Positions 23,891 through 62,817 of a stretch of DNA of 64,000 nt are shown here, one piece after another; the stretch's first letter is position 1; every line of letters starts with the position of its first letter. The translations under genes and the position numbers were made by a program. The notes beneath the pieces are model-generated. The model ran no database searches and was not told where the DNA came from. It saw only the letters and a program-made list of their open reading frames with translations. The stretch covers positions 62,001-126,000 of the forward strand of contig NW_024881843.1 in the NCBI RefSeq assembly GCF_019059575.1, given 5' to 3'. The DNA is from Amphibalanus amphitrite (Eukaryota; Arthropoda; Thecostraca; Balanomorpha; Balanidae).

Positions 23891-25132
23891 TTCATTTTTG
23901 ATTGCGGGCCAGCTCCTCAACTTCATGCGATACGTGTTGGATATGATGAAGTCGTTTCCGAACCTGTCATTCAGTCTCGCCTTCGCCTGCGAGTAAGCAT
24001 CATCTGTCCTCAGGTGGAGCAGGCCCAGGATGGCTGTCTTGGCTTCACCCGCTGTGTACTTTCCTAGAAAGTGAAGGCGTTCGATGGGAGAGGATGTCTG
24101 ATGTTCAATATAGGTTTCAAAAGACTTCAGCCACATTGGAAACTCCTCAATGTTGCCACTGAAGATGCCTGGTTCCAGCACGGGAAGCCTACTACCATTG
24201 TGTCGCTCAGTAAGCAGATCTGCCAGTCTGTGTAGTGCTGCTTGAGTGCTGGGTTCATCATCCTCCACTCGACCATTGGCTGTCTTGTCGTTTCTTCCTG
24301 TACCTTGGACATTATCCTTCACTTGGACTGCAGCATCAATGGAGACATCATTTCTTGGTACTGCTCCAGTTCCAGTGACCACTTCAGTATTCTCCTCCTT
24401 TGCACCAGGTCCAACTTCATCACTTGGGTCTTGACTTGCTCCCTCCTCCCTGTCAACATCAAACTGGTCAACCACCCTCAGCTTGGCTTCATTTATGTTC
24501 ATTTCTGTTTCTATATCCAGTTGTTCTTGCTCCAGCAGCAGCTGTTCTTGTTTTTGCTTCAGATGCTGCCTTCTTCTACTCATTGCAGCTCTTGCTTCCA
24601 GCTCTGCTCTGTCCTGCTGCATCTTGAGCTTCATGAGCACAACCTGTGCCTTTACTTCACTGCCGGCACATGACTTGCTTGAACGTGATCCACCAGCGTC
24701 AGATCTTGCAGGAGTAGCATCATCTGCGGAGACTGAAGACAGGTGAGCCTCCACCTTGCCTTTCAGCTCATTCACTTCAGTGAGGTTCTTGTCATGATCC
24801 AGGTTTTCTCTCTCTTCACCCTCCATCAGGGAGCATATCACTTCATATGTTTGCACAAAATCAACATAATCATGCTTCCAGACATCAAAGTCCTTCCTGA
24901 TCACTTGTGGCTTTTCTTCCTGCTCAACAGACTCCAACAGTAAGCTGCCACGTGATCTCAGCTTCTTCAATAACTGCTTGTACAGCTTTGACTTCTGAGC
25001 AGCCTGGTAGCATCTACCTTTCTCAGTTGTCCGCAGCTCCCTGCCCTTCGCAGACAACATCCTCTGTTCGTCACTCATTGTGGACCAGGCAAGGAATTGC
25101 TCAAGAAAAGATGGCACAGGATTTAGTTTCAC
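23891..25132 (-). CDS. gag: BEL/Pao Gag N-terminal part (interrupted)
   Basis: The native protein begins at the ATG at 25132 (MKLNPVPSFLEQFLAWS) and runs about 412 residues to the insertion point. The frame then continues another 56 codons into the inserted DNA. The N-terminal third is Lys/Glu-rich; residues about 160-230 are a Gln/Glu coiled coil (RRRQHLKQKQEQLLLEQEQL). After an acidic linker, residues about 315-412 carry the DUF1759 capsid-like domain typical of BEL/Pao (LPVLEPGIFSGNIEEFPMWL, LHFLGKYTAGEAKTAILGL). The rest of that domain is found on the far side of the insertion, in the same phase. Gag and pol therefore formed one continuous frame before the insertion. Confidence 0.9.
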
Positions 25133-36782: not shown

Positions 36783-37240
36783 GTCCTATAGGACTGGCGA
36801 ACTGTCCTATAGGACCAATAGGATTCCTATAGGAATTTGTCCTATAGGACACTCTTCTACAGGACTCCTATAGGATTTCTATAGGATATTGTCCTATAGG
36901 ACAATTTTCTGCAGGACTTAATAGGGCACCTGTAGAACACTTTCCTATAGGACACTGTCCTATAAGAGTGCTATAGGAATCCTATATGGCAGTTTTCTAT
37001 TGGAGACTCTCCTATAGGAGTGCTGTAGGACTCTTATATGACAGTTAGCTTTAGGATACTGCCCTATACAGATAGGAGTGTTATAAGACTCATATATGAT
37101 ACTTTACTTTCCTATAAACACCCATCTGACAATGTCCCAAAGGATTCTAAAGGTAATCCTATAGGATATGCCTATTGACACTTTCCTATAGGAGTCCTAC
37201 AGGACACTGTCTATCATATATGATTCCTATAGGACTCCTT
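36783..37240. repeat. CCTATAGG palindromic subterminal array, left arm
   Basis: Irregularly spaced TCCTATAGGA and degenerate variants, densest near the terminus and decaying inward. Confidence 0.85.
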
Positions 37241-41100: not shown

Positions 41101-42834
41101 AGACCTTGTCCGTGCGTATCCCATGCCGTTTACCGCTTGTCGCTATCTTGCCTCGTTCTCGAGATTTCAGGGGGGCGGTCATCCGCCTCCCCCCCCCGTC
41201 GGTTGTAAGTTGGCGCAGACACCCGTCGGTGCGCGGGTTAATATATCAAAAACCGGTTAATATTTTTCAATGAAATTTGGTAGATATTCATTTTTGCTCA
41301 CTCTCTAGGTACCATGCAACACTACTTCTATGCCAATTCATTAACTTTTTTAAAGGTGGGCGGGTCCTTTTAAGCACGAACCACCCTACTAGTCGGTCCC
41401 CAACGGTGCACCAAATTTGGGCGCGTGTGCAATTTTGCGCGTGCGCACGTGCCAATTGGGTCACAATTGACTTATGTTCGGCACCCTCCTAAGCGGTTCC
41501 TAAAGGTGTACCAAATTTGAGCGCAATCGGCCCAGCGGTTCTCGAGATCCGGAAGCGGCCTCCTGCGCGTGCGCACGTGCAAACAGGGTCACAATTGACT
41601 TTTGCTTGACAACCTCCTAAGCGATTCCTAAAGGCGTAACAAATTTAAGCGCAATCGGCCTAGCCGTCCTCGAGATCTGGAAGCGGCCTGCTGCGCGCAC
41701 GCACGTGCAACCGGGGTCACAAATGACATTTGCTCGGCACTCTCCTAAGCGGTTCCTAAAGGTGTACCAAATTTGGGCGCAATCGGCCTCACCGTTCTCT
41801 GTGTATGGAAGCGGCCTCCTGCACGTGCGCAGTGCAAACGGGTTCCAAACGACTTTTGCCCGGCACGCTACTAAGCGGTCCCTACCGGTGTGCCAATTTT
41901 TAGCGCAATTGGTCCAGCCGTTCTCGAGATCTAGGAGCGACCACTGCACGTGCGCACGTGCAGTAGTACCCCAAACGTGACACATGGAAATGCATTGCCC
42001 GGTAAGTGCCTACTTACATGCCAAGTTTCAGCGCAATGGGCATGATAATTACAGAGTTATTGTAATTGCTACAAACATGACATCTCTTCATTATGCACGT
42101 GGCACGTGCAGCCATGGTCAACCACATGCATCGAGAAAAGTCCTGTTCTCGGCAGAATGGATGAATATACCCTACAAACATATTTCCTAGTAAATCGATC
42201 ATGTGCTTACTCCGACATAATCCTCTCAAAAACGTCAATTCAGCAAGAACGACTTTGGGTTCTGACGCCCTTGACTTCGCAAGAGCCACATGACACGGCG
42301 ATCACCCAGGTGCATCAAGAGTAGTCAATTACGGGGTAGGTAGGAGGGATGGGGCTACCCAACAAAAAGGACCGCGGTTCAATCGACCCAGCGGTGGTCG
42401 AGATAAAAGCTTCTCAAAAGCGTTTTAGGGCGGGCCGGTCCGAGCTGTACTGCTCATACTGATATTTTCCCGTTACCGTTACACTGAAAACTCTTTTTCG
42501 AGCTCGCTCGCAAGAAAAAAAATCAAATAACAATTTCAATACCAAAATATACAATTCATAAGCTTAGGTGACGTCTTACGACAGCTCAGTGAGTAGTCGT
42601 ATCTTCCCAATACCTTCATCATTAAGGTCTTACGATCATCTTAAGATTAGACTTAAGATGTCCCGACGTGAATCGCACTTACGATCGATCGTACGACAAA
42701 TGTCTGCGACCAAAATTTTGATCGTAAGATAAATCTTAACTGTCTGCGATGCCAACGTGAATACCAAATTATCGTACGACAAAGAGCGATCGTAAGATAA
42801 ATCTTACGAAAAATTCCGACGTGAATACGGGCCC
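38169..42834. mobile_element. Copy B: uninterrupted reference copy of the copy A family
   Basis: Left end GGGCCGTATTCACGTCGACA and right end (reversed) GGGCCCGTATTCACGTCGG, about 4.67 kb. Subterminal palindromes TCGTACGATC, ATCTTACGATC and CGTAAGATAAATCTTACG are at both ends. The order inside is: TCGTACGA region, AGGTCA segment (38750-40050), TTAA-MITE-like segment (40072-41370) with a G/C-tract insertion, about-130-bp tandem repeats (41375-41990), and the CACGTG-rich tail. No coding frame above about 120 residues has any recognisable domain. TSD is unclear. Confidence 0.8.
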
Positions 42835-42875: not shown

Positions 42876-43214
42876 GTTTCCTATAGGATTCCTATAGGAC
42901 TCCTATATAAAATTCCTATAGGACACCGAAAAATACTATAGGACAGCCACTACGTTCTATAGGATGCCTAAAGGACTATGTAGGTAAAGGTCCTATAGGA
43001 TTCCTATCACACGTCCTATCGAACAACACGTCCTATAGGAATCCTATAGGTATCCTATAGGTATCCTATAGGTATCCTATAGGTATCCTATAGGTATCCT
43101 ATATGTATCCTTTAGGTATCCTATAGGTATCCTATAGGTATCCTATAGGTATCCTATTGATAAGTCCTACACAATTTCTATAGGACTGTCCTATAGGACT
43201 CAATAGGACTTTTT
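42876..43214. repeat. CCTATAGG palindromic subterminal array, right arm
   Basis: It includes a regular run of about ten TATCCTATAGG units of 11 bp (about 43030-43155). Confidence 0.88.
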
Positions 43215-44542: not shown

Positions 44543-45454
44543 TAAGCGATTCCTAAAGGTGTACCAAATATGAGCGCAATCGGCCCAGCCGTTCTCGAGA
44601 TCCGGAAGCGGCCTCCTGCGCGTGCGCACGTGCAAACAGGGTCACAATTGACTTTTGCTCGACAACCTCCTGAGCGATTCCTAAAGGCGTACCAAATTTA
44701 AGCGCAATCGGCCTAGCCGTCCTCGAGATCTGGAAGCGGCCTGCTGCGCGCGCGCACGTGCAACCAGGGTCACAAATGACATTTGCTCGGCACTCTCCTA
44801 AGCGGTTCCTAAAGGTGTACCAAATTTGGGCGCAATCGGCCTCGCCGTTCTCTGTGTATGGAAGCGGCCTCCTGCACGTGCGCACGTGCAAACGGGTCCC
44901 AAACGACTTTTGCCCGGCACGCTACTAAGCGGTCCCTACCGGTGTGCCAATTTTTATCGCAATTGGTCCATCCGTTCTCGAGATCTAGGAGCGACCACTG
45001 CACGTGCGCACGTGCAGTAGTACCCCAAACATGACACAAGGAAATGCATTGCCCGGTGAGTGCCTACCCACATGCCAAGTTTCAGCGCAATGGGCACGGT
45101 AATTACAGAGTTAGTGTAATTGCTACGAACATGACATCTCTTTATTATGCACGTGGCACGTGCAGCCATGGTCACCCACATGCATCGAGAAAAGTCCTGT
45201 CCTCGGCAGAATGGATGAATATACCCTACAAACATATTTCCTAGTGAATCGATCCTGTGCCTACTCAGACATAATCCTCTCAAAAACGTAAATTCAGCAA
45301 GAACTACTTTGGGTTCTGACACGACACCCTTGAGTTCGCAAGAGCCACATGACACGGCGATCACCCAGGGCCAGGTGCATCAAGAGTAGTCAATTACGAG
45401 GTAGGAGGAATGGGGCTACCCAACAAAAAAGACCGCGGTTCAATCGACCCAGTG

Positions 45455-45947
45455 CACGATAGGACCGCGGCCGGAATTAGCGCGACATTGGTGGATTTGG
45501 CGACCTTTCCCAAATTGAGTTAAACTGTGTCACGTAGTTCAGAAATGTCCATGGACCACGAATCTGCAAATATTTTTCGTCCATATTATCCCATGGCGAA
45601 AGGATGTGTTACACATTGGTTCACGTGTTATCTTGAAAAGTTTATCACTCGATGGATAACTGAGTTGTTAAACATGCGGGAGGGGTTTAACAAATTGTTA
45701 AACCCCTTGTTGTGACGTCACATTTCATACAGGGTTGGGGTATTGAAATTAAATGTGTTAATTCATTTGAATAACCGAAACAAACATCGGTGATCCATCA
45801 TATGACGATATGTATTTCAATCACATCGCATCACATTCAAAACATTCGAGTTGCAGGCTGAACAAGCATAACGTTTTAATGGTGACAGTTTTCAAAATCA
45901 CTATTGAAATCACTCCACTCCTTGTTGTCTAGCGCCCTCGTAACTTA
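45455..45947. other. Left arm of the Transib-like insertion and gene 3' flank
   Basis: It contains a palindrome GGGGTTTAACAAATTGTTAAACCCC near 45685-45712. ATTAAA on the minus strand at 45875-45880 is a possible polyadenylation signal for the recombinase gene. Confidence 0.5.
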
Positions 45948-47198
45948 TCAGTTACGACTGTACACATAGAATGTACAGCCATTGAAGTTCCCACTGAATC
46001 CGCTCGCACCAGTCGACATGCTCTGCGCGTGAACATCTTGCCCCCCATCCGCGCGAGACACAACTTCTGTCCTCTTGACTGGCCCAGCAGGATGGCTCTC
46101 TCCTGCGACCACAGCCGACATTCTCTTCTGCATTTTTTCATCGGCTTCGGCGTAGCTCGATAGAGAACTAACACTCTTATGTCCCGTAAGCTGCGCAATG
46201 AAATGCGGCGCCACTTGAGCGTCAAGAAGTCGTTTAACGCCGGTCTTGCGGCCGCTGTGGTTGGTAAACCTGTTTCCTTCTAAGCCCGCGTCAATCGCTG
46301 TCTCTTTCATCATCTTGCTGAGGCTGCCGTTGCCGAGCGGCTGGTTTTTATACCAGTCTTCTTTGCTCTGGTAGTTGATGGCTAGGTAGAACGCTGGGTG
46401 TTCTTTGTTGTGTCTCTTTTCTTCATATAGCTTGAAAAGAGCCACCGCACAGCTTTCGGAACACTGACCCTCACAAGTACAGTATATCTTGGGGGTGAAT
46501 GGGCGTCCCGGGCATGCACCTTTTCTCGTCTTAGTAGCTCGCTCCTGAAACTCGATGAAGGTCCCTTCAGACGATTCACCGAGCTTCACATCGCCCCATT
46601 GCATGTCACGGTGTTGTTGAACACCACGAAGACCGAAGCCAGTGGTAAACTTCCACCAGAGTGCCCGCAAGAGACACTTAGGCGAGTGTTTCCCCATTGC
46701 TTCACTAGTCCAAAGTTTCTTCTCATCATCTTCGCTGAGGGGCATTGCACGATTCGGCCGATTTCCCTTTCCTGCTCCCTTCGCAATGGTCACCTTTGCC
46801 GACAGACAAGCCCGAAACTTATCATATTCTTTCCCACTCAGATCTGGTTGCGGGTGCTTCACGGCCTTCAGATGTCTCTCCAGCGAATACCGAACGCCGT
46901 TGTAAGTAGAAATTTCAAATGGATCGCCATTGTCCTTGTTAAGTTCCATGATAAATTCGCATAGAATTATGTTCAGCTCCCTTGCCGGAATAGTCTCTAT
47001 CGGTCTAGTCTCATTCTTTCTTTGTAGAAAAGCGTCTAACTTCCGGATATCTGACTTGGTTTTCTTAGTCGTTGCCGCCGGCACCTGATTTTGAATAAAC
47101 TTGTCAATTCTTTCTTCCACATTTTCATCTGGTTCATCATCATAGTCCAGGAACCCTTGAAACATGTCAAAATTAGGCAACTCCCTTTCATGGTTCAT
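45948..47198 (-). CDS. Crypton-like tyrosine recombinase, intact 416-residue frame
   Basis: A single uninterrupted frame from ATG at 47198. It has the full tyrosine-recombinase catalytic set: R181 (GFGLRGVQQH), H314-x-x-R317 (NHSGRKT), H340 (LTGHKSV) and Y349 (SSLSSYAEAD), with a helical core-binding region at about 30-140. A cysteine cluster (YCTCEGQCSESC, about 239-250) lies between the catalytic arginine and the HxxR box. The arrangement fits the DUF3504-type recombinases of Crypton elements and the host proteins derived from them (ZMYM/QRICH1/KCTD1 group). Phage-type or DIRS reverse-transcriptase partners are absent. It would cut and join DNA through the tyrosine. Alternatives are a domesticated host gene or cargo of the large element. 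Intactness amid decayed repeats suggests recent arrival or selection. Confidence 0.85.
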   Translation of the reverse strand: MNHERELPNFDMFQGFLDYDDEPDENVEERIDKFIQNQVPAATTKKTKSDIRKLDAFLQRKNETRPIETIPARELNIILCEFIMELNKDNGDPFEISTYNGVRYSLERHLKAVKHPQPDLSGKEYDKFRACLSAKVTIAKGAGKGNRPNRAMPLSEDDEKKLWTSEAMGKHSPKCLLRALWWKFTTGFGLRGVQQHRDMQWGDVKLGESSEGTFIEFQERATKTRKGACPGRPFTPKIYCTCEGQCSESCAVALFKLYEEKRHNKEHPAFYLAINYQSKEDWYKNQPLGNGSLSKMMKETAIDAGLEGNRFTNHSGRKTGVKRLLDAQVAPHFIAQLTGHKSVSSLSSYAEADEKMQKRMSAVVAGESHPAGPVKRTEVVSRADGGQDVHAQSMSTGASGFSGNFNGCTFYVYSRN

Positions 47199-50100
47199 AT
47201 CGACCCAGAAAGTAGTTAGACCAAGAAGAAGTAGAAATTAATTAGTACAATAAAGTAATCAGACCCCTACTATCAAAAAGTAACGAGAAAGTAATCCAAG
47301 GCGGCCCCCGGTCAACAGACATAGTAGCCCAAATCTAGTCGGATATGAAAATTCTTCTAAATCCATAGACTTTAATGCTAAATTGACTATATTTGAGAGG
47401 GTTTTATGAAGATACATGACCAGATACAGAAAAAAGCGAGATGCTATCTTGTAGATTAAGTCGTCTACTATCTGCGACTTTTGAAGTGTTTTTCAATCTG
47501 AGGTACGGAAATCGTGTTCCCAAGAGACTGAAAGCAGCCATGCTTTACATTAGACCCAATGGCAAAAATTCGGAATCTGACCAAATTGGCCATTTTTACG
47601 TCTGATTTATGAACATTCTAGACAGGATATATAAAAACCCGAGATGCTATCAGGTGGGAAATTTCATTGTCTATTACCGCTTTTTGAAGTGTTTTTCGAT
47701 CTGAGACCGGCAAATCGTGTTCCCAAGAGACTGAAAGTAACCCTGTTCTACAGCAAGACAATGGCAGAATTCTAATATTTGATGGAAGATATCTTAGGTG
47801 ATAATAACCTTACTACTAATTGCAATGCTTCATTGGAAAGCTCAACACTGGCACTATCATCGGTCTTTGCATTGCTATTTCACAGAGCAACAAGAAATAA
47901 CGTTTTGAAGCCTTTGAATATTGACTTACTTTTCATCGACGGGCTCGATCCCAATCACCACCAACAATTTTCCGGGAAGTCAGGATTTTGCAGATATTTA
48001 AGCAGAATTGCAGAGCTGTGTTAATACTACGGCACTAAAATACACATTTTAAGAAAACTGTTTTTTTTTCTTAGCATGAGTTAGGTCTAAGAAACAGCAA
48101 CGATATAATGAGGAAAAATAAGTGCAAATGATCGCGCAAAAGAGTATGCTTAGCTCCCTAGCAACCACCTAGCAACGTAAGGCAAAATAGTAAACAACTT
48201 CTGTTGATATCAGGTACTCAGCCTTGGAAGCACACTAGACGGTCACCATACTGGGCTTCATACTGAATTTTGCATACCAGAATGGATGTTTCCAACTAAA
48301 ATTATTTTCAGAGGTCAAAAAAACTTATTTTGTGTCGCCTACAAAAATTTTCAACCCCCTTTGTGTCCCCTGCCCCCGGAGGCCGGATAAGTGTTGCACT
48401 AGGGTGGTAAAATCTGAAAAATTCTAGGATTCATTAGGCCAATGTTAATGTTAGTGTCGTCAATGTAAGTGTGGCCCTAAACTTGGATAATGTATTATTA
48501 TACTCATTACAGTGTCCCAAAATTTGTTGATTTGGGAAGGATATACTAAGATTCATTTGCCACTCTCACCACCAATTTCTAAGAGCAATTAACCACTCTC
48601 AGCCAAGAACACCTTGTTACTTCAAAAGGCAGTTCAGGTGTGGTGGACTTGGACAGGTGGGCAGGTGTGGTGGACTGAGTTGTGTGGATACTTGGAGTTG
48701 GTTTATGATCATAGATACTCATGGATAAAAATAAATGCTATTGATCTTTTCTCACTCTTTTTGTATCCAATCTAACCAGCAGTTTCCACCATCTACCCCT
48801 TTTTGGTGGATAATATCCCCCTCTGGCCTCTGACACCCCAGCCAAAACTCAACTTTGGGACACTGAATGCATGTGTAACTAATCTTGTGCAGATGCATTT
48901 AAGAATTGCTGACATTCTATTTTACATTTCTCCATAATACATTTAGCTTTGTGTTCTATATGGTGAGATTTCACACCTGTTATGGCAAAACAAATAATAG
49001 GTGCCTATGTATAATACAATATACCTACCTATGCAACAATATGTTGCAAAAGGTTCCTTTTCTACATCAAGGCCACTAATATTATCAAACCAAAATTATA
49101 ATCATTACATTTTTGGTATTAGTATACAATAAGCCAAAATAAAATAGGTGTAGGTGCTAGGTAGGTGGGTTGTATGCTTCGGAGCTTGTCGGTTGGCAGG
49201 TTTAAGGTAGGGAAGTTGTAACTTGTAGGTACAGGTAGGTAGAAGGTAGATAGGCTGTAGGCTGGTAGGTGAATAGGTGATAGGGTAGAAAGTAAAATTA
49301 GGTTAGGTAATGATAATGTTTTTCTTTCATTCAGACTTCTTAAATACTTTATGCAAGAGTAAAAGAGTAGAAGTCGGAATGAAGGAAAACAATTAAGCCT
49401 GAACCAAGCTTACATACCTACTAACCTACAACCTACCTACAACATACCAACACAAAACAGAAAACCTACCAGCCTACAACCTCCCAGCTTACAGCCTAGA
49501 TACCAACCTACAACATTTTTTTCGGAGTCCTTGGACTGGTAGGTTTACTTTTACCAGCTAATGAAAATTGAAATTCCTGCTCTTCTAGGGCTAAACAAAT
49601 TAAAATCAAAATGAAAGTTGCGTCAATATTAACATAAAATACCTATTCATTGACAACTTTGGCAAGTGTTTCAAAATCAGGCAACAAATCTACACAGCCT
49701 TGCTTTTGATGCCCACTGGGCTAGCGTTGTTATATCCAACTAACAAGTACATAAACCAGCAAAATTAGACAACCCAAGATTCCTTACTTCCAGTGTTATG
49801 TCCTGTCTTGCTTATAACAGAAAAAAAACATAACCACAATACAACAACTCAGCTTTCATCACGGCGCCAGTCCCTTTCTTGAAAGCATTCAAACTTGTTT
49901 GAAAATTGGACAAGCACTGAACGCTACTCGCGAGAGTCCACTCCTGTTTTGCTACGTGTTCATGATCACAGTTATACCTCTCAAAGACGTGCGCCGAAAA
50001 GGCCCGCTCAAAATCTTTGATGCGTTGGCTCCTGGGGACTACAAAATCCACAGTGAAGGCTCCCTGGCGGCTGGGGCGTCAGCTCAGCGTTGTCCCCTCG

Positions 50101-50849
50101 TGTCACCAGCATCCGATTGGTTCGCTCAGGGTTATTCTCGCCGCGGATTGGCTGGTTAGTCTGTTCGCTAGCAGTGTGCGAAAACGCCGTCAACAAATGC
50201 GATGCAGTGAGTTCACCATTTTCGTGACTTTGTCACCAAATGTCTCTGGTGCCTGTCAGCTTCTGTCGCCTACAATGTAAGCGAGTAGGAAGTTTTTTTG
50301 ACCTCTGATTATTTTTTCGCGAAATTTATCTTTGTTGCCCTACTAATTTTCGTAAAACCGAGATATACAAACTTCATGATATCAAAAATAATATTGTGAT
50401 AATGAAAACCGCCATATAAAACAAGATAATTGCTGAGATCATGCCTACTAAACTTGGTCCTACCCCCTAATTCAATATACCCTGATCCAAGGAAGTAATC
50501 ATGGAAGCTGATAAATATTTTGCAGATGGCTTTGTGAGCTTGTATATTTATTGAAGAACGCGCAACCGCCACGGGATAAAACAATTAAGCCACTCGCAGG
50601 AAAAAAAAATCATTTAAACGTCTCGCCTGCGGCTCGACGTTTAAATGATTTTTATTCCTGCTCGTGGTTTAATATATAGTGTACAACGTCCGCGCCACAT
50701 CAGCCCAAACACAAAGTTTTGTGCCAAGCATCGTAGACCCGTTTTCGTACGGAGAAAAATAGCAGCTTATGTAGGTAAAAAATATATCTTTTAGACGGCT
50801 TTATCAATATTTTCGACGTCTAACCTGATAGTTTAGACCATGGGCTACA
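47199..50849. other. Region upstream of the recombinase gene, inside the Transib-like insertion
   Basis: It includes a diverged direct duplication (GAGATGCTATC ... TTTTGAAGTGTTTTTC ... CGTGTTCCCAAGAGACTGAAAG at about 47438-47545 and 47650-47745) and a TAGGTAGG-rich stretch (49140-49500). Two minus-strand CCAAT boxes lie at about 50115 and 50146. A 79-codon minus frame (50051-49812, MDFVVPRSQRIKDFERAF...) starts just downstream of the CCAAT pair. It may be a first exon, but I recognise no domain and no clear donor. Confidence 0.4.
50594..50676. repeat. Perfect-like hairpin, about 35-bp arms
   Basis: AATCATTTAAACGTC pairs with GACGTTTAAATGATT around the loop TCGCCTGCGGCT. The pairing extends outward to CCACTCGCAGGAA/TTCCTGCTCGTGG with one or two mismatches. 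Confidence 0.8.
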
Positions 50850-51195
50850 CACTGAAAACAATTCAACCCGCGTACAGCGAGTAAAACCCGCTGCTGGCGG
50901 GTACACCTACCCACCACCTAATTTGACACTCTACCAGCGGGTGCGTTTACCCGCATATCGCAGGCTGTGAACCCGAGTATATTGTGTACCTAACCCGCAT
51001 AGGATGGGGACTCAACCCACACACAGAAGGCAACCTACCCGTTCGCAGCGGGTACACAATCCGCACATGGCGTATTACCTGCGCTGCGTGGGTTGGGAAC
51101 TCGCTTTCTGCGAGTACAAATATCCGCTGGTAGGGTGTCCAAATCAGCTGGAGGGTAAAGTACCCTCCAGTGGCGGCGTTCAAGGAGGAAAACGC

Positions 51196-51271
51196 CGCCA
51201 TCGCCGGGATTCGAACCCGATATCTTTGACATTACAACCCGATGCGCTACCAACTGCGCCACAGGCGACCT
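51196..51271 (-). repeat. tRNA-like SINE head
   Basis: On the minus strand, a perfect A box TGGCGCAGTTGG (51250-51261) and a perfect B box GGTTCGAATCC (51207-51217) are spaced as in a tRNA. The T arm pairs (CGGG/CCCG), but the anticodon stem and acceptor stem do not. A tRNA-derived repeat or a dead tRNA is therefore more likely than a functional gene. A GGCGGCGTT/AACGCCGCC hairpin follows at 51171-51199. Confidence 0.7.
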
Positions 51272-51337
51272 GACGCAAAGCGACTGAAATGTCGGTGTAT
51301 ATCAGATTAAAATGAAGAACTGACGGCGGACTCAATA

Positions 51338-53740
51338 CACTCAAAACTTTTTTACCACCTCCTGGAGGATTCATTTTTACCGAACCCGCAAGACAAGAGT
51401 ATATTTAAAGGGTACCTCGCTGCTACCATTATGTGCATGGTAACGGTACGTGGGTAAATTGAAGTTATTCGCCAGCAAAGAGTTTTATTACCATGTAAAT
51501 ATCAATATTACTCTCGCAATCCTGAACAGGACGAAAACTCTTTCCTCCTAGGTATTGTGACTCGTGTGCAGGTGGTCGTTCCATGCGTGGATCTTGTTTA
51601 CCCTCGTGAATATAATATTTGAAAGAGTATCAATCAGCCAATCAAAAACGAGATCGGCCGTTTGAAGGTTGAAGGCCGCGCGCATCTGTCAGTTTTCCGC
51701 CGTTAGTCTCCGAGAGAGGGTGTGCGCAGTGTCGGTGTGGCGCGAGGTGGCCGTTGGTGATTGTGCTTGTGTGCTGTTCATCGCCTATAGAGCCTCTGCG
51801 GACATTTTATTGTAAGTACCGATGTGATGGAGCATTACGTGCTGTTGAGTGGTGCTAGTTTGATCTGGCTTACAGATCCCGCGCATGCGGCCACGTGGCA
51901 GAGTGTTGTAAGTAGGTACATAAACTTTGTTGTGATGCATTTTGTTGGTGACTTAGAAAAAGATATATACTGTAGTGATGCAGTTTTATTATCCCACGTA
52001 GACGGGCGACCACCCAGGAACGCTGCCGTTCACTTCAAATGTTGTGGGCTGTGCCTTATCCAATTTGAGGGAGCTGAATTCTTATTCATATTCAAGCATT
52101 CATTTTGAGTATTCGTAATCAAGTTGCATTCAAGTTGTATCGTGATGTTTGTTTACCGCGTGTGCATCGCTGAACGCGTATGAATAAGTGGAGTCTCACA
52201 ATGTTCATGGCTGCAGTGAACCCCTCGTATTGTTTCTACGGAATGCCAAATATGTATTGTTGCTCTTGAAGCATGTTTTTTAGTTGATGAGCTCCGGTTA
52301 ACAGAAGCTTCGTGAAGCTTCTGAAGAGCGTCTGTGGGTCCGTTACCATCCTCTGGGGGGGTTTACACTAAAGGAAAGCGTAAACATTACCATGTCACTA
52401 AGGGTAAGCCAGAAGAATATGCTCTTTGTAAGGTGGTAAATCACAGAGTAGATGGCATGCTACTCTTTAGAGGAGGGTCACGTTAAAAAGTTACCCTTCC
52501 ACAGCGTGTAACTTCGAAAATGTTGCCCTCTAGACGAGAGTAAATCAAAAGAGTTTACCATACAGAAGATGGTAAAAAACGTCTGTGTGTCACGTTACCC
52601 CTCCCTGACGAGTTTACTCTCCATGAAAGAGTAAAATTTACCATCTGGAGGGTGGTAAAAAACGTCTGTGTGTCAAGCTATCCGTCGAGACCGTTGTGAC
52701 GCATACCGTTCTTTTGACGTTTAAAGTTTTATAGTGTTTCGAGCTAGCCTGAGCTAGGCTGAGTTGTCTCACCTTTCAAGTGATCGGCTGTGATGTATCA
52801 CATTAGTGTTGCAGTGTACTTGCGTTGTTGTTTCGACAATACAGAGCATACTTATGAAGACAGTGAATGTTGGTTGGTTGTATTATAGGACTGCGTAGAG
52901 AATAGGTGTTAGTGTCTGGTATCCGTGTCATTGATGTGTGATGTTGCGCTCACCTTATATTTTTCATTGATAATTTAAAAAATTAGTGGGGATACAAATC
53001 CACTTTTCCGCCTAAATTTTAAATTTTCATGTCAAATAAGGTGCCTCCACGGAGAACACGATACGAGTTTACTCTGTATGGTAGGGTAAACCATTACCCT
53101 TGCAATGACTCCTTGCAAGAGTGTAAAATTTACTCCGATGTGAAGGGTCAGTTGGATTTTTTACTATTCTCGTCGGGGTAAACACCCAAGGAGTACAATT
53201 ATTTTACCCTACTGACGATATTTTAGGGGACGTGTTATTCTCGGGACGAGAGTAAATTGAAGAAGTTACCACCTGGGAAGGAGTAAATACAAAGTTTTTA
53301 CCCTCTCGAGAGTGGTAAAAAACGTCTGTGGACGTCTTACTCTTTCCTGGAGGGTAAACTCCCCAGGAATGAGTATATTTACTCCATGGTGGTGGGTAAA
53401 ATCAAAGTGTTACCCTTCAGCCAAGAGTAAAACAACGGATTTACCACCTGGGAAGGAGTAAATACAAAGTTTGTACCCTCTGGAGAGTGGTAAAAAACGT
53501 CTGTGGACACCTTACCCTTTCCTGGGGGGTAAACTCCCCGGGAAGGAATATATTTACTCCGTGGTGGTGGGTAATACCAAAGTGTTACCCTTAAGTCAAG
53601 AGTAAAATAACGGATTTATCCTCTGGAAGAGAATAAATTAGAAGAGTTTACCCCGCGGTACGTGGTAAAAAACGTCTGCGTGCCTCGTACTCCCTCCCAG
53701 CGGATTTACTCTCCAGGGGAGAGTAAAAAAGTTTTCAGTG
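51338..53740. mobile_element. CACTA (EnSpm)-like element, inner, 2403 bp
   Basis: Ends CACTCAAAACTTTTTTACC and (reversed) CACTGAAAACTTTTTTACT, with 2-bp TSD TA (51336-51337, 53741-53742). Subterminal arrays of GGTAAA/TTTACC/GAGTAAA with the interspersed phrase GTGGTAAAAAACGTCTGTG occur at 52340-52690 and 53050-53720. A plus-strand 94-codon frame (51824-52108) follows a GTAAGT-type donor sequence, but no domain is recognised. Confidence 0.82.
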
Positions 53741-54633
53741 TACAGAAAGTAAAAAGGCTTATCTTAGACAAGTGACATGAATCCGCCTATAGTGTTTTAA
53801 ATATTAAGGAATAGTTTGGACAAATATTTCATTTGTATCGGGAAAGATTTATTTATCCAGGCTTATTTTTACCAATAAAATGTGCTAAGAACGGTCTGCA
53901 AACTTCACCACAATGCGCCAGATTCGCGGACTGCAGAATATTCTGCTGAGCGTTCCAGCGAAATATTCTGCCGGCCAAGACGTGACGTCATCCAAACAAT
54001 GATTCAAATGTCCCAAGCCCGTTAAGTACCCTCCTAACTCACAGAACGCAGCCCCACAGCTGTTACAGTTACGATTACAATTGCCTTGCACATCTCTACC
54101 CCTGCACAAGGCCTGCACAAGCACGCAGCCGAGCCGAAAAGCGACTATTGTGGCGCGTCACATTTCAACACTCGTTTGAGCGTCGAAGTCAAAAGTATTA
54201 ATTTCAAAACCAATGCCGTGCATCAGTGGGATATCTGCCATGACACATGCGTGATCAAGGCAACCTGCGTATAGCATGTCACCTACCTTGGCGCAGCGAG
54301 TTACACGATGCAAAACCTGCGTGATGCGCTTACTCCGTGGGCGCGAGTAACGCCTGCGGCCACAACCCGCTGCGGACGAGTGATTGACCCCGCCAGAGGA
54401 GGTTTCATGTATCCGCGCATGACGGGTTGCTGTTTTACCCGAGTATAGCGGGCGTTGACACCCGTGAAGCGGGTGAAAGCTACGATGATAACGGGATGCT
54501 CTGCGAAACGCGGGAAGCTAAACGGGTAGTCAGCCTACCCGGCAGCAAAAACTCGCGCAGAGCGGGTAATTTCTTCAAAATACCCGCGATACCCGGGCCA
54601 ACTCGCAATCCGCGGGTTGAATTGTTTTCAGTG

Positions 54634-54941
54634 CACGATGAAAGAAAAAACTCATAGCGGAATATATAAATGCGCTTCAAATGTCAAATTTTTTGGTGCT
54701 TCAAAAATTGTGAGTTAATTTTACTGTTATAGATATTCTGGAATGCCGATATAAAAAGTCCCGCTAGGTCCCGCTGTTCTTTTATCAATATGGTGTTTAC
54801 CAATCAATTGCCTTCCAGAAAATGTATAATTTAGCTGCGTCAGCCTGCGGCAGCGAAAATGAGGGGCATTGTTTTACTCCAGGTCGCCGCGGCCGGGAGC
54901 CGCGAGTAACAGAACCTCAGGAATCGAACAAGGTTGCCAAG
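54634..54941. other. Transib-like insertion interior between nested elements
   Basis: Short unique sequence between the outer CACTA element and the TA element. Nothing was recognised. Confidence 0.4.
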
Positions 54942-55698
54942 TAGGGGAGAGTGGGAAAGATGCCCAGGGTTTTGCTATGTCATATATTATTCGAAAATGA
55001 CGATCGGAAAGCAAAAACTTGGAGTTTCAACGGAAGCCGACATCATTTTTCTCCAAAAATATCACACTTCCGTGCCTGAAATATGATAATTTTGTTTGCT
55101 ATTAAGCATTTTCCCGAAGAAGTGAAAGGGGGCATCTTACCCCACAGGTAGCCTTTCTCATAAAGTTTTGTCTAGTAAAAAGTAATAGTAAAAAGCATGA
55201 TTTTACTGTTGACCAGTAAAATTTTGTTTCATAAACAGACTTGTAAACGATTCAAAAAAATTCAGTTGATTCAGTCACGACTCACTTGATGAAATGACCG
55301 ATTCAATCACAACTCAATCAAACAGTCAGATTTTCCAAGCGATTCATTCACGACTCATTGGGCTAATGAATCAACTCAATCACGACTCATCCCATTAGCA
55401 GTGATTCAGGGAATGACTCAACTCATGATTCAACTCAACTCGATTCAATCAACATGTTATATAAAATATATACCGATATGTAATGTCAATTTCAAAATTT
55501 TTGATACTGATACCAAAATGATACCAACTAAATACACTGGGAGAATACCAATAACAAACCGAGCGGAGAAAAAATATTAAAAAGTACCAAATCTATACTT
55601 AATTCAACAAAATTTTAAGCATTTACAAAAATATGGTGTAAAGATGATAATTTAAGTTCAGAATAATCAAGTTCTGTCACAAATGAAGCTACCAGAGG

Positions 55699-57131
55699 CA
55701 TGGGCGTAGGAACGGCTGGAACATTGTGGGTGCATGGGTGCAGAAATCCAGCCATGGCCGGTGAAGCGGGGGGGGGGGGGGGGGCGACACCCGAGCGAAG
55801 GCTCGTTACGAGCTTTGAGGGTGTACCATGTCGAAAAGGTACCAACCGATAAGTACATTTGGAAGCATTGACCCTCGCATGTGTAGGGGGGTCGGATGAC
55901 CCCCCCCCCCATGGTTGTTCGCAAATAACTCGCGCAAAAAGCGGCTAATCGCGACGAAACTTTTAGTACCCTCGAGTTGATCAGTTTTACACCTACTCTA
56001 AAAATTTCATGACCCTTACCCAAAAGACCTTTGACCTGTGACCTGATTCTCGAGACCATGTTCGGCCGGAATCACGATTTGGCGTACGTCAGCTCACATT
56101 ATCCGCGCGTTTCCAGTCTTTTTGTGATTGTAGACGTCCAAACATGTGAAATGATGTTCTTCCCATGCATCACGGTGGGTGTGAAGATAACCTGAAGGTC
56201 AGGTCAGGTCATTGACCTTTGATGACCTCGGTTCACTTTTTCGAGTTTTACATGTTTCTAGGGTAGTTTATAGGGCTGATTTCGAATTTAGCATCCATTT
56301 GAACGTTTACGAAGTAGTTTTAGTGCTTTCGTGACATGCTACGACGCCGTCAGTGGTAGTTGACACCTACTATGGATAGCCGGTAGGACGCCTAATGGTT
56401 GACCTGACCTGACCTGACCCGATCTGGCCTAAATGCATGAAGAAATCATCTGTGATCAAAACTAACATCAGATATTTGTGATCAGCACCCCGAAAAACCC
56501 GACAACAGCTTCACTTTACGCAGTTCTAGCAGGTCCCGATTTCCCGACTTTTGGAATATTGACCTGAACTGGAAGGTCAACCAATGAAGTAGGACCTTAA
56601 AATTGGGTATCATCGGCTTCCTCTCGTCACGGGCAACCCGCAACACCCTCGTTTTTTTTCGCGAAGCTCTAGCTCGATCAGGGGCCGAACGGCAGGGGGT
56701 CCGACCGACCCCCCTCCCCCTCCCCCTACACATTAGAAGCTGGAAAACGCTGCACACATTCGAGGGCTAATATTGTCAATATTGACTACCGCAAAAAGTA
56801 AAAGCGGCCAACTTAGCCATTTTCGAAGATATCGGGCTAAAATTTTTGACAGTGGGTCATCGGTTCGGTTTGTGTTCAATCACATGCTCCATTTCCCTTT
56901 TTCAGCACAAATGTAAGCTTTGATGACCATCACTGATCACAGTAGCAAATGCTTCGAAAGATGGATAGTAGGCAACATATCCTGAATTTGCCGTGCTGCA
57001 TGGGAAGTAGTGTTGATGAAAAAGGGGTTTTTGGTTCAGATTATTGTGGGTGCAGAATACATTGTCTGCACCCACTGGATAAATATTGTGGGTGCAGCTG
57101 CACCCTTGCACCCATGGTTCCTACGCTTATG
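55699..57131. mobile_element. 8-bp-TSD TIR element, fourth layer, 1433 bp
   Basis: Ends CATGGGCGTAGGAACGG and (reversed) CATAAGCGTAGGAACCATGG, with perfect 8-bp TSD ACCAGAGG (55691-55698, 57132-57139). Arms carry TGTGGGTGCA/TGCACCCA repeats. The termini resemble those of the gag insertion (CATGGGCGTCGCCAC), so both may belong to one hAT- or P-like group. It contains the AGGTCA-rich segment at 55900-56760. Confidence 0.85.
55900..56760. repeat. AGGTCA/TGACCT-rich segment, diverged relative of 33590-34500
   Basis: Same order as in copies A and B: AAAAAGCGG..ATCGCGACGAAAC, then TTTCATGACCC, GACCTTTGACCTGTGACC, CATTGACCTTTGATGACCTC, and TTGACCTGACCTGACC. It is flanked by long G or C runs at 55768-55785 and 55901-55911, and by a C-rich end near 56708-56730. 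Confidence 0.65.
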
Positions 57132-57139
57132 ACCAGAGG

Positions 57140-58854
57140 ACTTATAAAATTTATTCATCTTCTTACAAAAGGAAACATATGCAAAATTTCACAGAATGCT
57201 ACCACACATCATCAGCGTCATCGAAAAGGACCAAAATTTGCAAACCAATTGTGATACCCAAACTGAAATAGCTGGTGATCAGGATCAGACATATCAAAAA
57301 AGTATTGATTGGTACGTTATGAAGCAGTGGTAAAGCAAGACACAGTACTAGACATATCCGGCGCGCTACAAGTTTTCTTTTACTAACAATAATACGGAAT
57401 ATCGATACTTCGAAGCTGTTCAACAATTACATAACTTAAATTTGAATGCTCTCATGTTAAAACTACCTCAACTTTCCATAACTTCAATAACAAAATAACA
57501 ACTCCAAGCCCCACGACACCAAGAGACGCGTTTACATAGGGTTTGTTGCAAGCTTATATCTCCGTCCGTGATGCTGCAAAAGATGCCAATGGTGCTTAAC
57601 AATTTACAAAATGATCCCTCTAAATATTTGAAGACCACTGCATCGAAATTATCGCCAAATTAACGAGCTAGAGCCTCGTCAAATATGCTATGTAAACCGG
57701 GCTAATGTTACTTCATACGGCGCGGATCTGGGTTCAAATGTGCATGCGCTAAGTGGGCGGCCATCTTGAATCAAGCAGCAGAACTATATAAAATAAATAG
57801 TTTATGTTTTTTTATTAAACTATGCGTATTTTAGTAGGCGTGGAAAACAGTTTTTAGGAAAGGAATAGAAAGGAAAAATTAGGGAAAAATTATCTAACAG
57901 TAAAATGCTAATATTACAATCTGCATTTAAGCCCAGCACTACTACATAGGTAGTTACAGCGTATACTGACGCAGCTGCGACATAAAAGTGTATTCTGTGT
58001 AGCTTGCATGTGGCAAGTACCTACTGCGAGCAGTCTGGCAAATCTCTAATCAGAGTTTAGCATCGAATGCAAAAACTGTTAGCGGTTCATAGAACTAGAG
58101 GGCGAAGAACACCAAACAGCAAAAGATTGTTTGTTGAGCTATGAAAGCAATAGTTTTTGGGTGATGGTGCAGGTGAAATGGGGGTGTTTGAAAGTTTTTT
58201 TTTTAAATAGTAGGCTATGTGTCTAGTTTTCGCCATTGTATCTTTACTTTTGTGAAACTGGAAGCCACGGCAGTACCTACCTATCTGACAGATCCATCAA
58301 TGCTCATAAGCCAAGGTATTCTTTATGTTGATAGGTAAACGCTGATTCTGCTGGGAAATATGAAGCGGTTTTGACCATGGATTAGACCAAGCAATTTATG
58401 GCCCTTTGTCCAAATTATCAACTAAGGTTACCAAATTCTAATGGGAACATGCATTGTGCATGCATAAATATGTTTTGTTTGCTCACAAATGTCCTGATGA
58501 AACAGGTCATTGAAAATGTAAAGATTAACATAATATCTAAAACCCTGTGCCTGTTGAGCAATGTGCACCCGCTACTGTTAGCTTGATAGCAGTGCTTTCA
58601 TGCACTGGAAATAAATTTCACATGCATTTTTCCATGTTCATGCATCAACGTGTATGTATAATTTGTGTTTTCAGTTTGACTTAAAACCTCCAACAAAATT
58701 ATTGTGGTTTTTTAATCATGCGCATTTATAATACTGACAAAATACCTAAAAATTTTGCAGTGCATTGTGCGTGTCTGTGATGCAAATGCCACATATATTT
58801 CTACATAATATAGTAGTACATATAGGCATAGATTCAGCAATTCCCAGCACATTG
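57140..58854. other. Interior of the third-layer element, nothing recognised
   Basis: AT-rich with short frames only. Confidence 0.4.
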
Positions 58855-61379
58855 TGATTGAATCATTTTGTCGATTCAATCAACTTGAATAGATGAGTTG
58901 CCGACTCAATCACTTTAAGTTGCCATGTGTTACCGATTCAATCACAACTCGTATGGCGACAAGAGGTGATTCAACCGACTCAATCACAGTGAGTCGGCAT
59001 TTACAAGCGATTCATGAGAATCGATTCAATCAGAGTTGAATCGCTTACAAGTCTGTTCATAAAGCAAAAATTACTTTTACCTGGAGTAGCAAATTTACTA
59101 GGTTACTTTAGCGCAGTTTTATTGGTGACCAGTAGGAAGATCCTGGGTTGTGTTTCATAAAAGCACGTGCCGTAGTAAAAAAGTCGAATGACGTTTGCTT
59201 TCGTGCTGTCAATTTCACCGAATTTCACCCTTGCTCTACCTTGCAGTAAAACAGCTTAGGAGTTTTGCTTTTAGCTTTAATTGTACTTTATGTCTTAATG
59301 CATGCCCTGAGTTTTCGGCATAAGCCTTTATTGACAAATAACAAACTTCATTTTTTCTTTAAAAACATCTATTGTTGCTAAAACCTCACGATATATCATA
59401 TGAAAAGTTGGCTCTCCATCCTGGCAAACTGAACGAGGTCAAGCGTATTTCTAGCAAGCTAATGTGAAGTGGAGATATGTTCAAAACGTTCAAAATGTGA
59501 ACTGCGATGGATTTTCATTGTAGGAGAGACATTAATTGAAAAAGGACAAGACACACGGACAACGGGCTATCACTGAAACATAATAAAGGAAGACCCAGTA
59601 ACCGAAGCATTTTCGATGTCGGCATAGAATAAACCTATAGAGCCTTGGAATAAACGCAAGTCCAACATTATCCTACTACTTGAACCTGAACCTGAAGTGA
59701 AAGAAACGTAATTGGTCTTGTGAGTACAAAACAAATACGACGCTGAATACTTTGTGGGTGCTGAACACTTAGATGCAACTTGAAGCAAAATAGCGCTCAC
59801 CGCCGTGATCATTGATGGTTCGAGGGGCACGTTGGAGTATTTGTCCCCCTCTGCAGCGCCCAAAGGTACGAACTTACGCATTTTTCCTCGCATTGAGAGG
59901 GAAATCAACAACTTTTATAAGAAATTTGATTTAAACAGCACAAATAGGCATAATATATCACAATACGAGAAATTTTTGAAAAAGCAAAAATGAAGCACAT
60001 TATTGGGGAGCATGCCTCCCCCAGCATATCAAATAACTTCTGGATCTTCTTATGACTTTACCGGTTGGTCGGACGGAGTCATGCATTACATCAGTGATGC
60101 CATCCACTGGGGCTATTGTGTGCGACGTTCTCGTATGCCCACCTACAAGCAGCGTTGTAGGTAAGTGACGGTCAGCTACGAGCGGGATCTGCCGGCTATC
60201 GAAGTCATGTGCCTAACCGTGCACACTGCACAGTGTGAAGGAGAAGGCCGACGAGCAAATAGCAACTTTGACCGCGGCGCGGGAGCATCCGTACGAGCTC
60301 ATATTGGGCCGTACTGGCGGCACGTGGGAGATCTGTTTTCTCGCCAATGTGTTGTAGATACGTAAGTGTCTTGTGTGCGGTTGTGGCTTGTGCGTTTGTA
60401 ATCTTTGATATAACCATGTGAATATGTAGCTACAACAAAATACATGCAACTGAAATGTGATGGGCATTTTTTAAAGCCACGTACAGATTTGGTACGGACT
60501 AGGCTAGCCGAGGCAGGGAAATCCAACCCAGGGAAAGTCTAGTCCAATCCAGTGCCCGGGTCTGGGGGTGTTTCCCTTTCCTTTGCATTGCTCTGTAAAT
60601 GAAGCAGCTACCGAAAATGAAATTTTAGTGACCAGACGAAAGGTCGCAACAAAATAAATCTCCACATTAAAAATTGAGCTCGAGCCAATTTAGGTCAAAA
60701 TTCAAAGCCAACTTGATTGCAGGGATCCTTAACTTAATGGCAAGAAGCGCACGGAATGCTGAAATATTTTAAAAGTAGGTGTGCCGTGGGGGCCTGCTTT
60801 AAAAACTCTGACCCCCTTCCATCGAAAACAATATCTAGTTGCGTCAGCTATCTCTAAATCGCATGATTCATCAAACATTCGCCGGTTCCTTCATGGCATA
60901 AACCGATGTTATTTGATAGCTCGTTCAATTATCGATACGTGGATGCTGGTCCCGTGCCGATCATTGGTCTAGCCACAGTGTATATAAATAGGGTCTAGCT
61001 ACCAAGATATATAGCCAGAACTGCAACGGTGTCTACCGCATTTCGACGGTCAAAATAAAATTAAAAAGATATCTTCCACACGGAGGTCCCATGACTCGTT
61101 TTCAAGCGTTACTGAGCTTCGAAATCTTACTCTTTTACTAATTACTTTTCACTATTGTTTATGAGACAGAGGGCAACAGTGATTAGTAAACTTGAAATCA
61201 CTATTCTACTATACACCAGTAATAGTAAAAAATGTTTATGAGAAAGGCTAAGGGTGGGAAAGACGCCCCCTGGCGTTGGGGAAGATGCCCCCTGCACTAT
61301 AAGTGACATAAATGGGCGCGTGAATCGCCTGAACGAATCAGTAGTCTCTTCGAGCGTGCAGAAGACACCAAACGTCATC

Positions 61380-61640
61380 GTAAGGGCCCTCAAAAGTAGT
61401 CGTAAGGGGCTTCAGAGGTCATCGTTAGGGCCATCATAGTCCAGCGCGGCCAAACAAGCCTCCGTGGTGGCGTTCGAAGACCACTGTGGGACCCTTATAG
61501 GTCTTCATGATGCTTGAGGTCCCTTGAGCCCATCGTGGGGACCTCAGATGCCAGCGCGGCCCGTGGAGCCAACGTGGGAGCCCTCAAAGGATGTCGTGAG
61601 GGGCCCTGGAGCCAATAATGGGGCCCACAGAGGCCGTCGT
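61380..61640. repeat. Degenerate minisatellite related to 27110-27725
   Basis: Units of about 25 bp around GGGCCCTCA(A/G)A(A/G)GTCGTCGTAAG. It lies in the right arm of the 54944 element. Confidence 0.6.
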
Positions 61641-62817
61641 GAGGGCTCTCAGAGTCAGATGCCGCCCAAAAAGTCGCTGTGTGGGCCGAGTGACCGGCAT
61701 GGGGAGCACCCGACCGTACTGGACTCTCGATAGTCCCAGATCGGCTTTTGTCTCTCATCACAAGTATGTAATAAATGATTTGACGGGCTGCTTGAAGGAC
61801 AGCCTACGGATTTAGGGAGGCGTCTTTCCCCATCAGGACAGGGGGCATCTTACCCCAAGGTACCGAAGTAACATTATATCAGTACAATTTGTTAGCCATA
61901 AAACTACACCCTGAAACAAACTGTTTGGGACACAGTACACGCATGTTAATGTATCACGACTATAGCAAGGGACGCAAAAATTATCTACCTTCTTTGATAT
62001 TTGCAATGCTTTGACACCAAAATATTTTTTGAAAACAGCAAATAAAAAACATGCAATCACCAGCCAGCCGTTGCCCAACTGAGCTTCGCAAATTTTTGTG
62101 CAGCTAACAAGGCAGGCTTCCGCTTCACGCTAAGAACATTAATTTCAAGGTGCGATTCTTTGTTTCGTCGCTAGAGGGGGTGGGGCGTCTTTCCCACCCT
62201 GGGCATCTTACCCCACTCTCCCCTACCAACTATATTAAAGTTTTGTCCGGACATATCCGTACCTTCTATCGGAGTTTCTGATACACTTTTCTGACCCGTA
62301 ATAAATTTGTTATATAGTCATGTAGGCCATCAGACTCCCATCTTCACGGTTTTGGTGGCTACATTATTTGCTTATCGGAATTTCCGGTGCCGTCATGACC
62401 TGGCCTGACAGGTGCTGCCGTCTTATCACGTGACCGAGCGGAGTCGAGGTCAGGGCAGGTCAACCGATTAATTAATCAATTATTAATGAATTAATTAATG
62501 ATTAATCAATTGAATTAATCAGAAATTGCTTAGAAAGTACACCAATTACCATTTTTATGATTCTACCATCCTTTTCATGTGAAAAGCGGGCACGAAATAC
62601 GAAAAAGTACCGATGTCGCGCTAATTTTCGCTCCGGTCCCATTGTGCAGTGGTGGCCGAGATAAAAGCTTCTCAAAAGCGTTCTAGGGCGGGCCGGTCCG
62701 AGCTGTACCGCTCATACTGATATTATCCCGTTACATTGAAAACTCTTTCGCGCTCGCTCGCAAGGAAAAAAACATAAATAACAATTTCAATACCTAAATA
62801 TACAATTCATAGGCTTA

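Follow-up and report, generated by a model that had tools for sequence, protein, structure and literature searches.

A small Crypton nested in a Transib element, with two ends that appear to form one split hairpin site

Introduction

Within a window of 64,000 nucleotides from Amphibalanus amphitrite (contig NW_024881843.1, positions 62,001 to 126,000), a gene for a Crypton-type tyrosine recombinase lies between Transib-like ends about 17 kb apart. Did a Crypton land in a Transib-like element, or does one large element carry the recombinase, and by which DNA are the ends of a Crypton recognized? The last point has been left open, since animal Cryptons were found to have no terminal repeats in the part of Kojima and Jurka, 2011, that is cited here (PMC3212892). 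All comparisons were made within a single genome (G000; 807,550,619 bases in 2644 contigs). A small Crypton is nested in a Transib element, and its two ends make up one split site; we favor, with a probability of about 0.5, the reading that it recombines through a circle whose joint folds like the attC site of integrons.

Results

An intact recombinase gene

45948..47198, minus strand: Crypton tyrosine recombinase, 416 codons, intact (frame list, domain matches, motif comparison)

The 416-codon frame has domain matches to DUF3504, at E 1.2e-20, and to Phage_integrase, where its score of 39.7 bits exceeds the cut-off of 27.1. The R..HxxR..H..Y set ascribed to it in the first-pass annotation is present, on the minus strand; the R, K, H-x-x-R, H and Y motifs are all found and are shared with a family that is 37% identical, and we presume their particular residues to be catalytic. 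An R-H-R-Y set is also given for Crypton recombinases in the text of PMC3212892 drawn on here. The enzyme was rightly described as the sole intact one in the right half of the window: beyond 32 kb only one other frame of at least 150 codons was seen, with 181 codons.

Ten loci of the gene, including that of the window, were found in the genome, with at least 88% identity in the matched pieces. A full-length frame free of stops is present at four loci (C346, C25, C215 and C1347), the frame of C583 is open and 39 bases shorter, and the remaining loci are broken. Structure prediction from the single sequence gave a mean predicted local distance difference test (pLDDT) score of 35.6, too low to be of use. 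Among viral contigs searched for relatives, five stretches fitted a pattern for the window protein and 19 for that of a second family, none of which was confirmed.

A Crypton nested in a Transib element

45450..45454, unstranded: Transib target duplication, left copy, CAGTG (flank sequence)
45455..45585, plus strand: putatively non-autonomous Transib piece 1 with left terminal inverted repeat (end motif, genome copies, abutting pieces)
45586..50678, minus strand: Crypton, 1.9 kb minus its insertion, TTATCCC...TATATA (edges common to other copies, empty site)
47302..50484, unstranded: 3.18-kb insertion within the Crypton (8-bp duplication ATCCAAGG at 47294-47301 / 50485-50492)
50679..50849, plus strand: Transib piece 2 (abutting pieces in other copies)
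50850..54633, unstranded: 3.78-kb element with CACTG terminal inverted repeats and a CA duplication, EnSpm-like by its ends only
54634..54942, plus strand: Transib piece 3 (abutting pieces in other copies)
54944..62223, unstranded: 7.28-kb insertion with ends GGGGAGAGTGGG... and a TA duplication (end sequences)
62225..62646, plus strand: Transib piece 4 with right terminal inverted repeat (right-end pairing, abutting pieces)
62647..62651, unstranded: Transib target duplication, right copy, CAGTG (flank sequence)

The structure is one of nesting: the Transib element is split by the Crypton and two other insertions, and the Crypton is itself split by the 3.18-kb insertion. The Transib superfamily is characterized by inverted ends starting with CAC and by a 5-bp target duplication, and the window element shares both, CAGTG standing outside its two ends. 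Exact matches to CACRATRGGACCG occur in the window only at 45455 (+) and 62646 (-), and the left and right ends are identical at 30 of 40 bases by hand count. Matches with up to three mismatches are not above chance (37 against 39.6 expected), whereas at least 39 further left ends in the genome, at 95-100% identity, place these ends beyond chance. The Transib-like inverted repeats and 5-bp duplication proposed earlier are thus confirmed.

Among the best 40 left ends, 34 are paired with a right end, and 28 of the 34 pairs span 1031-1073 bp; as no more than the best 40 matches are scored, these copy counts are minimum values. The pieces that flank the Crypton abut directly in all five fetched copies. 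The uninterrupted junction CCATAGTGTACA is printed in four of them (L028, L029, L030 and L032); in L031 the probe word is missing, yet the BLAST pieces abut. The flanks of L028 and L030 are identical and represent one insertion that was duplicated. Duplications of 5 bp also surround L028 to L031, and the one around L032 is not clean. No RAG1-like transposase was recognized, complete copies measuring ~1.03 kb and the window copy having no candidate frame. The ~1.03-kb element is probably a non-autonomous derivative; it differs from a complete Transib in that no transposase is seen in the window copy, which acts merely as a landing site.

Alignment of the nine other Crypton loci to the window defines a common unit, 45586-47301 plus 50485-50678, in unrelated flanks, with edges uncertain by up to 3 bp owing to repeated TA. 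The left end TTATCCC is found at eight of the nine (C95 lacks the first 81 bp) and the right end GGTTTAATATATA at seven (C1347 is cut inside the hairpin described below, and in C48 the final bases are missing); at C830 the right piece is incomplete. The ends are thus constant in different flanks and without ordinary terminal inverted repeats, the exceptional loci being truncated. Within the ~1.9-kb unit, the recombinase is the only frame of at least 150 codons, no separate search for a DDE-transposase domain having been made. Since both window flanks sum to the empty site CCATAGTGTACA, no target duplication is needed. A TA or ATA duplication, which the window copy would permit, was rejected: other copies show CA, TG, TC or AT before TTATCCC.

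These boundaries decide between the two origins considered in the first-pass annotation. A 17-kb Transib-ended element with the recombinase as engine or cargo would explain why the gene lies between genuine Transib ends, and the cited part of PMC3212892 describes a comparable case, MarCry-1_FO, in which Mariner ends are joined to a Crypton. Yet the window copy, which spans 17,192 bp, is the only one of the 34 Transib pairs to overlap any of the 10 Crypton loci, no Transib piece of at least 20 bp occurs at any of the nine other Crypton loci in the 10-30 kb read per locus, and the empty site is seen. The large element is therefore highly improbable. With it falls the suggested new combination of inverted repeats and tyrosine recombinase, the whole composite being seen between the same ends in 1/34 pairs only. 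Mapping the edges of the recombinase copies gave the same boundaries in unrelated flanks, the outcome named in advance as the mark of simple nesting. Separate Transib copies lie ~10 kb (C12) and ~15 kb (C215) from a Crypton.

A hairpin at the right terminus

50584..50673, unstranded: terminal hairpin with two CTCG/CTCG mismatch pairs (outer 50593-50596/50661-50664; inner 50622-50625/50633-50636)

A long imperfect palindrome abuts the right terminus at all 10 window-family loci, C1347 lacking the outer 3' arm. As CTCG lies on the same strand in both arms, the other strand has CGAG opposite CGAG and thus a tandem G.A mismatch, which would be a stable sheared motif in DNA. Groups of recombinase loci were formed by visual comparison of their hairpins and of their identity to the window, with no tree, and such hairpins occur at nine of the 14 groups. 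The same plan is seen at C338/C103/C1410/C102, C639/C796, C230/C1407 and C834, whose recombinases are 37-43% identical to that of the window in the matched part; hairpins with other numbers of mismatch pairs occur at C67/C490/C44 (27% identity), C54, C610 and C427. A hairpin near C267 (L043) is a 334-bp-family copy by sequence and orientation and was not counted as belonging to C267.

Arm sequences vary among families while the complementarity of the arms and the same-strand CTCG mismatches are kept. The polarity of CTCG relative to the terminus is the same in all seven families with a located complementary left terminus (window, C338 type, C834, C67, C54, C610 and L068). In C215 and C48, two of the 10 window-family copies, the 13-bp loop is inverted and the outer mismatch pair is not, so that the inner pair has the opposite polarity. 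Template switching between the palindrome arms would explain this inversion; one mediated by the recombinase is possible and is not needed.

A background of palindromes scoring at least 17 was drawn from 301,754 bases (the window and L009-L054), a set biased because most loci were picked for Crypton genes. A mirrored pair of CTCG or CGAG is found in 21 palindromes, every one of them sited at a copy of a Crypton gene. Fifteen lack such a pair, one being the L043 copy and several being simple repeats.

Complementarity between the left terminus and a segment next to the hairpin

45586..45598, plus strand: Crypton left terminus R' (TTATCCCATGGCG), reverse complement of 50567-50579 at 12/13
50567..50579, plus strand: R'' segment (CGCCACGGGATAA), complement of the left terminus
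50674..50678, plus strand: spacer ATATA, right terminus and inferred crossover (end mapping, empty site)

The two ends of the Crypton make up one split site, in which the left terminus, R', is complementary to R'', a segment just inside the terminal hairpin. The clearest case is a 334-bp non-autonomous family (L071-L078, L072 being a right end only), in which the left terminus, TTACTGTATGCC, and the segment GGCATACAGTAA, just inside the hairpin, are reverse complements without a mismatch. The R' and R'' sequences vary between families while their complementarity is kept.

Visual inspection had shown the pairing in the window family and in L068 before a score test was run, which covered a single side of every hairpin. 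In a control, the segments that precede the hairpin in nine families, L068 now included, were each set against the left regions of the other families; the left region of L068 in this control was chosen after its R' had been seen. Cognate ends scored at least 13 in six of nine families, against none of 72 non-cognate comparisons (maximum 11). Three of the nine (window, C338 type and L068) had been noticed before the test, and four of the six blind families pass: C834 (score 14, shuffle maximum 11.5), C67 (13, 12), C54 (16, 11.5) and C610 (16, 15). The autonomous C338 type scored 14, with a shuffle maximum of 12.5.

Two non-autonomous copies related to the window family (L063:73-425 and L067:552-734) have large inverted duplications that contain the left-end word TTATCCCGCACCG or a near variant.

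Joint, small derivatives and targets

At least 40 full-length copies (99-100%) of the 334-bp derivative keep the same ends and the hairpin and have no gene. Three copies stand head to tail in L077, with a period of 334 and an exact joint of TATATA directly followed by TTACTG. This natural joint is predicted to fold as DNA into a single hairpin of 176 nt with the 12-bp R''/R' pair at its base. The predicted energy is -60.3 kcal/mol for the CTCG strand and -63.3 for the CGAG strand (z -15.4 and -16.9), and none of 200 shuffles was as stable.

The first five bases of 18 right flanks of the 334-bp family are A (14), C/T (16), A (14), C (16) and C/T (15); since the flanks of C1035 and C87 are identical, at most 17 of these target sites are independent. 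The consensus of this best sampled family, AYACC, resembles the element's own left end, TTACT. T is the second base in 15 of 16 right flanks that belong to the window family or to the related L063-L070.

Two further arrangements were observed. In C205:615783-616438 (G000), two 334-bp derivatives lie tail to tail with an 8-bp overlap at the hairpin end, perhaps through insertion into the end of another copy. At L033:2842-2960, with left flank 1055-1082, the C338 Crypton is located in one arm of a separate long palindrome, whose other arm suggests the empty site GAGCA^AGAACA, without duplication.

Discussion

A possible mechanism and its alternatives

The arrangement of the two ends suggests the following cycle. 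The recombinase would excise the Crypton as a circle, whose joint, R''-spacer-L''-hairpin-L'-spacer-R', would adopt an attC-like hairpin fold, either as a single strand or as a cruciform. The head-to-tail joint of L077 is an indirect sign of such a circle. Strands could then be exchanged within the TATATA/TTA spacer, the partner being a short duplex target that resembles R', and this would leave no duplication and could yield head-to-tail arrays. Which strand reacts could be set by the CGAG/CGAG G.A mismatches, a role that extrahelical bases play in attC. More tentatively, and with odds we set below even, such Cryptons may be self-encoding cassette-like elements that build a folded, strand-specific attC-like site from both ends, a eukaryotic counterpart of integron single-strand recombination with CGAG/CGAG as the strand-selection signal.

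Several observations weigh against this cycle. The evidence comes from one genome, and circles, single strands and folding in vivo are deduced from sequence. The hairpin was not found at five of the 14 groups (C267, C918, C1176, C220 and C1241) within ~1.3-1.8 kb per side, with a shorter stretch on one side for C1241, whose contig begins there; in 0.7 kb upstream of C1727 none is seen, and C1541, of the C338 family, has lost half of it. In C639 and C230, R' was not found, with scores of 9 each that fall under the shuffle maximum; the score of C610 is hardly above its own maximum, and the window family, which pairs 12/13 bases at the mapped terminus, scores 10.5 against a maximum of 11. The gene of C215 is intact despite the opposite polarity of its inner mismatch pair. 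The spacer is partly paired in the predicted L077 joint fold, unlike in attC, and a shorter conventional double-stranded core, such as CAGTA-TTATATAT-TACTG, can be read at the joint.

This last point leads to a serious competitor, to which we give about one chance in three: a double-stranded site of the Cre/Flp kind, whose short inverted arms stand on either side of the TATATA spacer (6-8 bp) in the joint of the circle. On this view the hairpin would be a cruciform or an accessory array for protein binding, R'' would be one more binding site, and no DNA would be single-stranded. Imperfect inverted arms do lie beside the spacer at the natural joint and are also readable at the window-family ends, and tyrosine recombinases typically use arms of 11-13 bp and a spacer of 6-8 bp, according to the cited part of PMC3212892. 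Yet the longest complementary pair is R''/R', whose members are ~100-146 bp apart at the joint (R'' lies 99 bp from the terminus in the window and 146 bp in L077) and would meet only if the intervening DNA folds. Such a site also leaves aside that the hairpin complementarity and the same-strand CTCG mismatches persist while the arms vary. A different proposal, that the hairpin is a passive or a replication or RNA feature (a structure of the 5' untranslated region, a silencing trigger or a Helitron-like rolling-circle terminator) and no recombination site, is unlikely. Helitrons and Helentrons end in a hairpin, insert without a target duplication and occur in tandem arrays. The Crypton ends resemble them in these traits, to which a passage of PMC8268682 is related, and the hairpin is upstream of the gene in six of the nine hairpin-bearing groups. 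It lies, however, on the other side of the gene in C54, C610 and C427, and since the polarity of CTCG relative to the terminus is unchanged in C54 and C610 although the gene is reversed, a DNA end signal fits better than a 5' untranslated structure. The gene-less 334-bp copies retain it as well, and the window Crypton has no second frame of at least 150 codons that could encode a helicase, no helicase domain search having been made. Rfam gave 31 and 6 matches, none at gathering score, though generic microRNA-hairpin models reached E 2e-10.

Other features of the window

The outer 491 bp of the EnSpm-like element (50849-51339) are 97-100% identical at all other genome places scored, and a second CACT-type inverted pair (51336-51367/53711-53742) suggests that one element is nested in another. 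On the minus strand, a BEL/Pao-type frame of 1654 codons (16925-21889) matches Peptidase_A17 (E 2.3e-46) and DUF5641, with a gag-like DUF1759 frame (23726-25132, minus) upstream of it. Elements of the BEL/Pao type are known from animals, and the frame fits an animal host. A 128-bp tandem repeat rich in GCACGTGCGCACGTGC forms two separate arrays (41436-41962 and 44543-45016). An 11-bp palindromic tandem repeat, TCCTATAGGTA, occupies 43031-43157, and a longer related palindrome lies at 36825-37019.

Comparison with known systems

The label CryptonA-like rests on gene content and on ends compared with the published description. As in the CryptonA elements of the cited part of PMC3212892, a single recombinase gene of the DUF3504/phage-integrase type is present, and few autonomous members stand beside many non-autonomous ones. 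The difference lies in the ends, terminal repeats not being reported there, whereas here one terminus is complementary to a segment inside the opposite hairpin. No description of Crypton ends of this split-hairpin kind was found in the titles and abstract openings searched, a scope outside which subscription papers and Repbase reports lie, and within this literature the split hairpin end is new for Cryptons. Composites of the Mariner-Crypton type differ in that several copies of the whole composite are not seen here, where one of 34 Transib pairs has it. A tandem satellite of oyster is annotated as a Crypton in the passage of PMC8268682 cited. Vertebrate Eulor5/6 termini are similar to those of salmon Cryptons in the portion of PMC5753468 used, a likeness taken from the published description and not from sequence, and an annotated pre-miRNA of mouse is made up of Eulor5A alone in that of PMC3495686; Crypton relics in vertebrates may thus form hairpins too. 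Moreover, Crypton recombinases are named in the cited text of PMC3212892 as the source of vertebrate ZMYM2/3/4, QRICH1, KCTD1 and KIAA1958, so the DNA target of their ancestor would bear on those proteins as well.

The split hairpin site gives these Cryptons defined boundaries, which are useful for annotation, and fits both duplication-free insertion and head-to-tail arrays. An integron cassette in its linear form starts with R' and ends with R''-L''-...-L'. In the linear Crypton, likewise, the R' side of the joint comes first, and the remainder of the site stands at the other end. It differs from an integron in being eukaryotic, in encoding its own recombinase and in its longer R arms, and the two systems show no evidence of homology beyond the tyrosine-recombinase family. 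It differs from attC in its symmetric CGAG/CGAG mismatches, which replace single extrahelical bases on one arm, and in its partly paired central spacer, single-strand use being the proposed one for the Crypton. The likeness to attC, which has poor sequence conservation with R boxes at its boundaries in the cited part of PMC2727003, lies in the order R''L''..L'R' with complementary R arms that the Crypton joint restores, in sequences that vary while complementarity is kept, in strand-asymmetric interruptions of the stem and in the head-to-tail array of L077. The split site thus lets bench work ask directly if folded DNA, which bacterial integrons use, also serves a transposon of eukaryotes.
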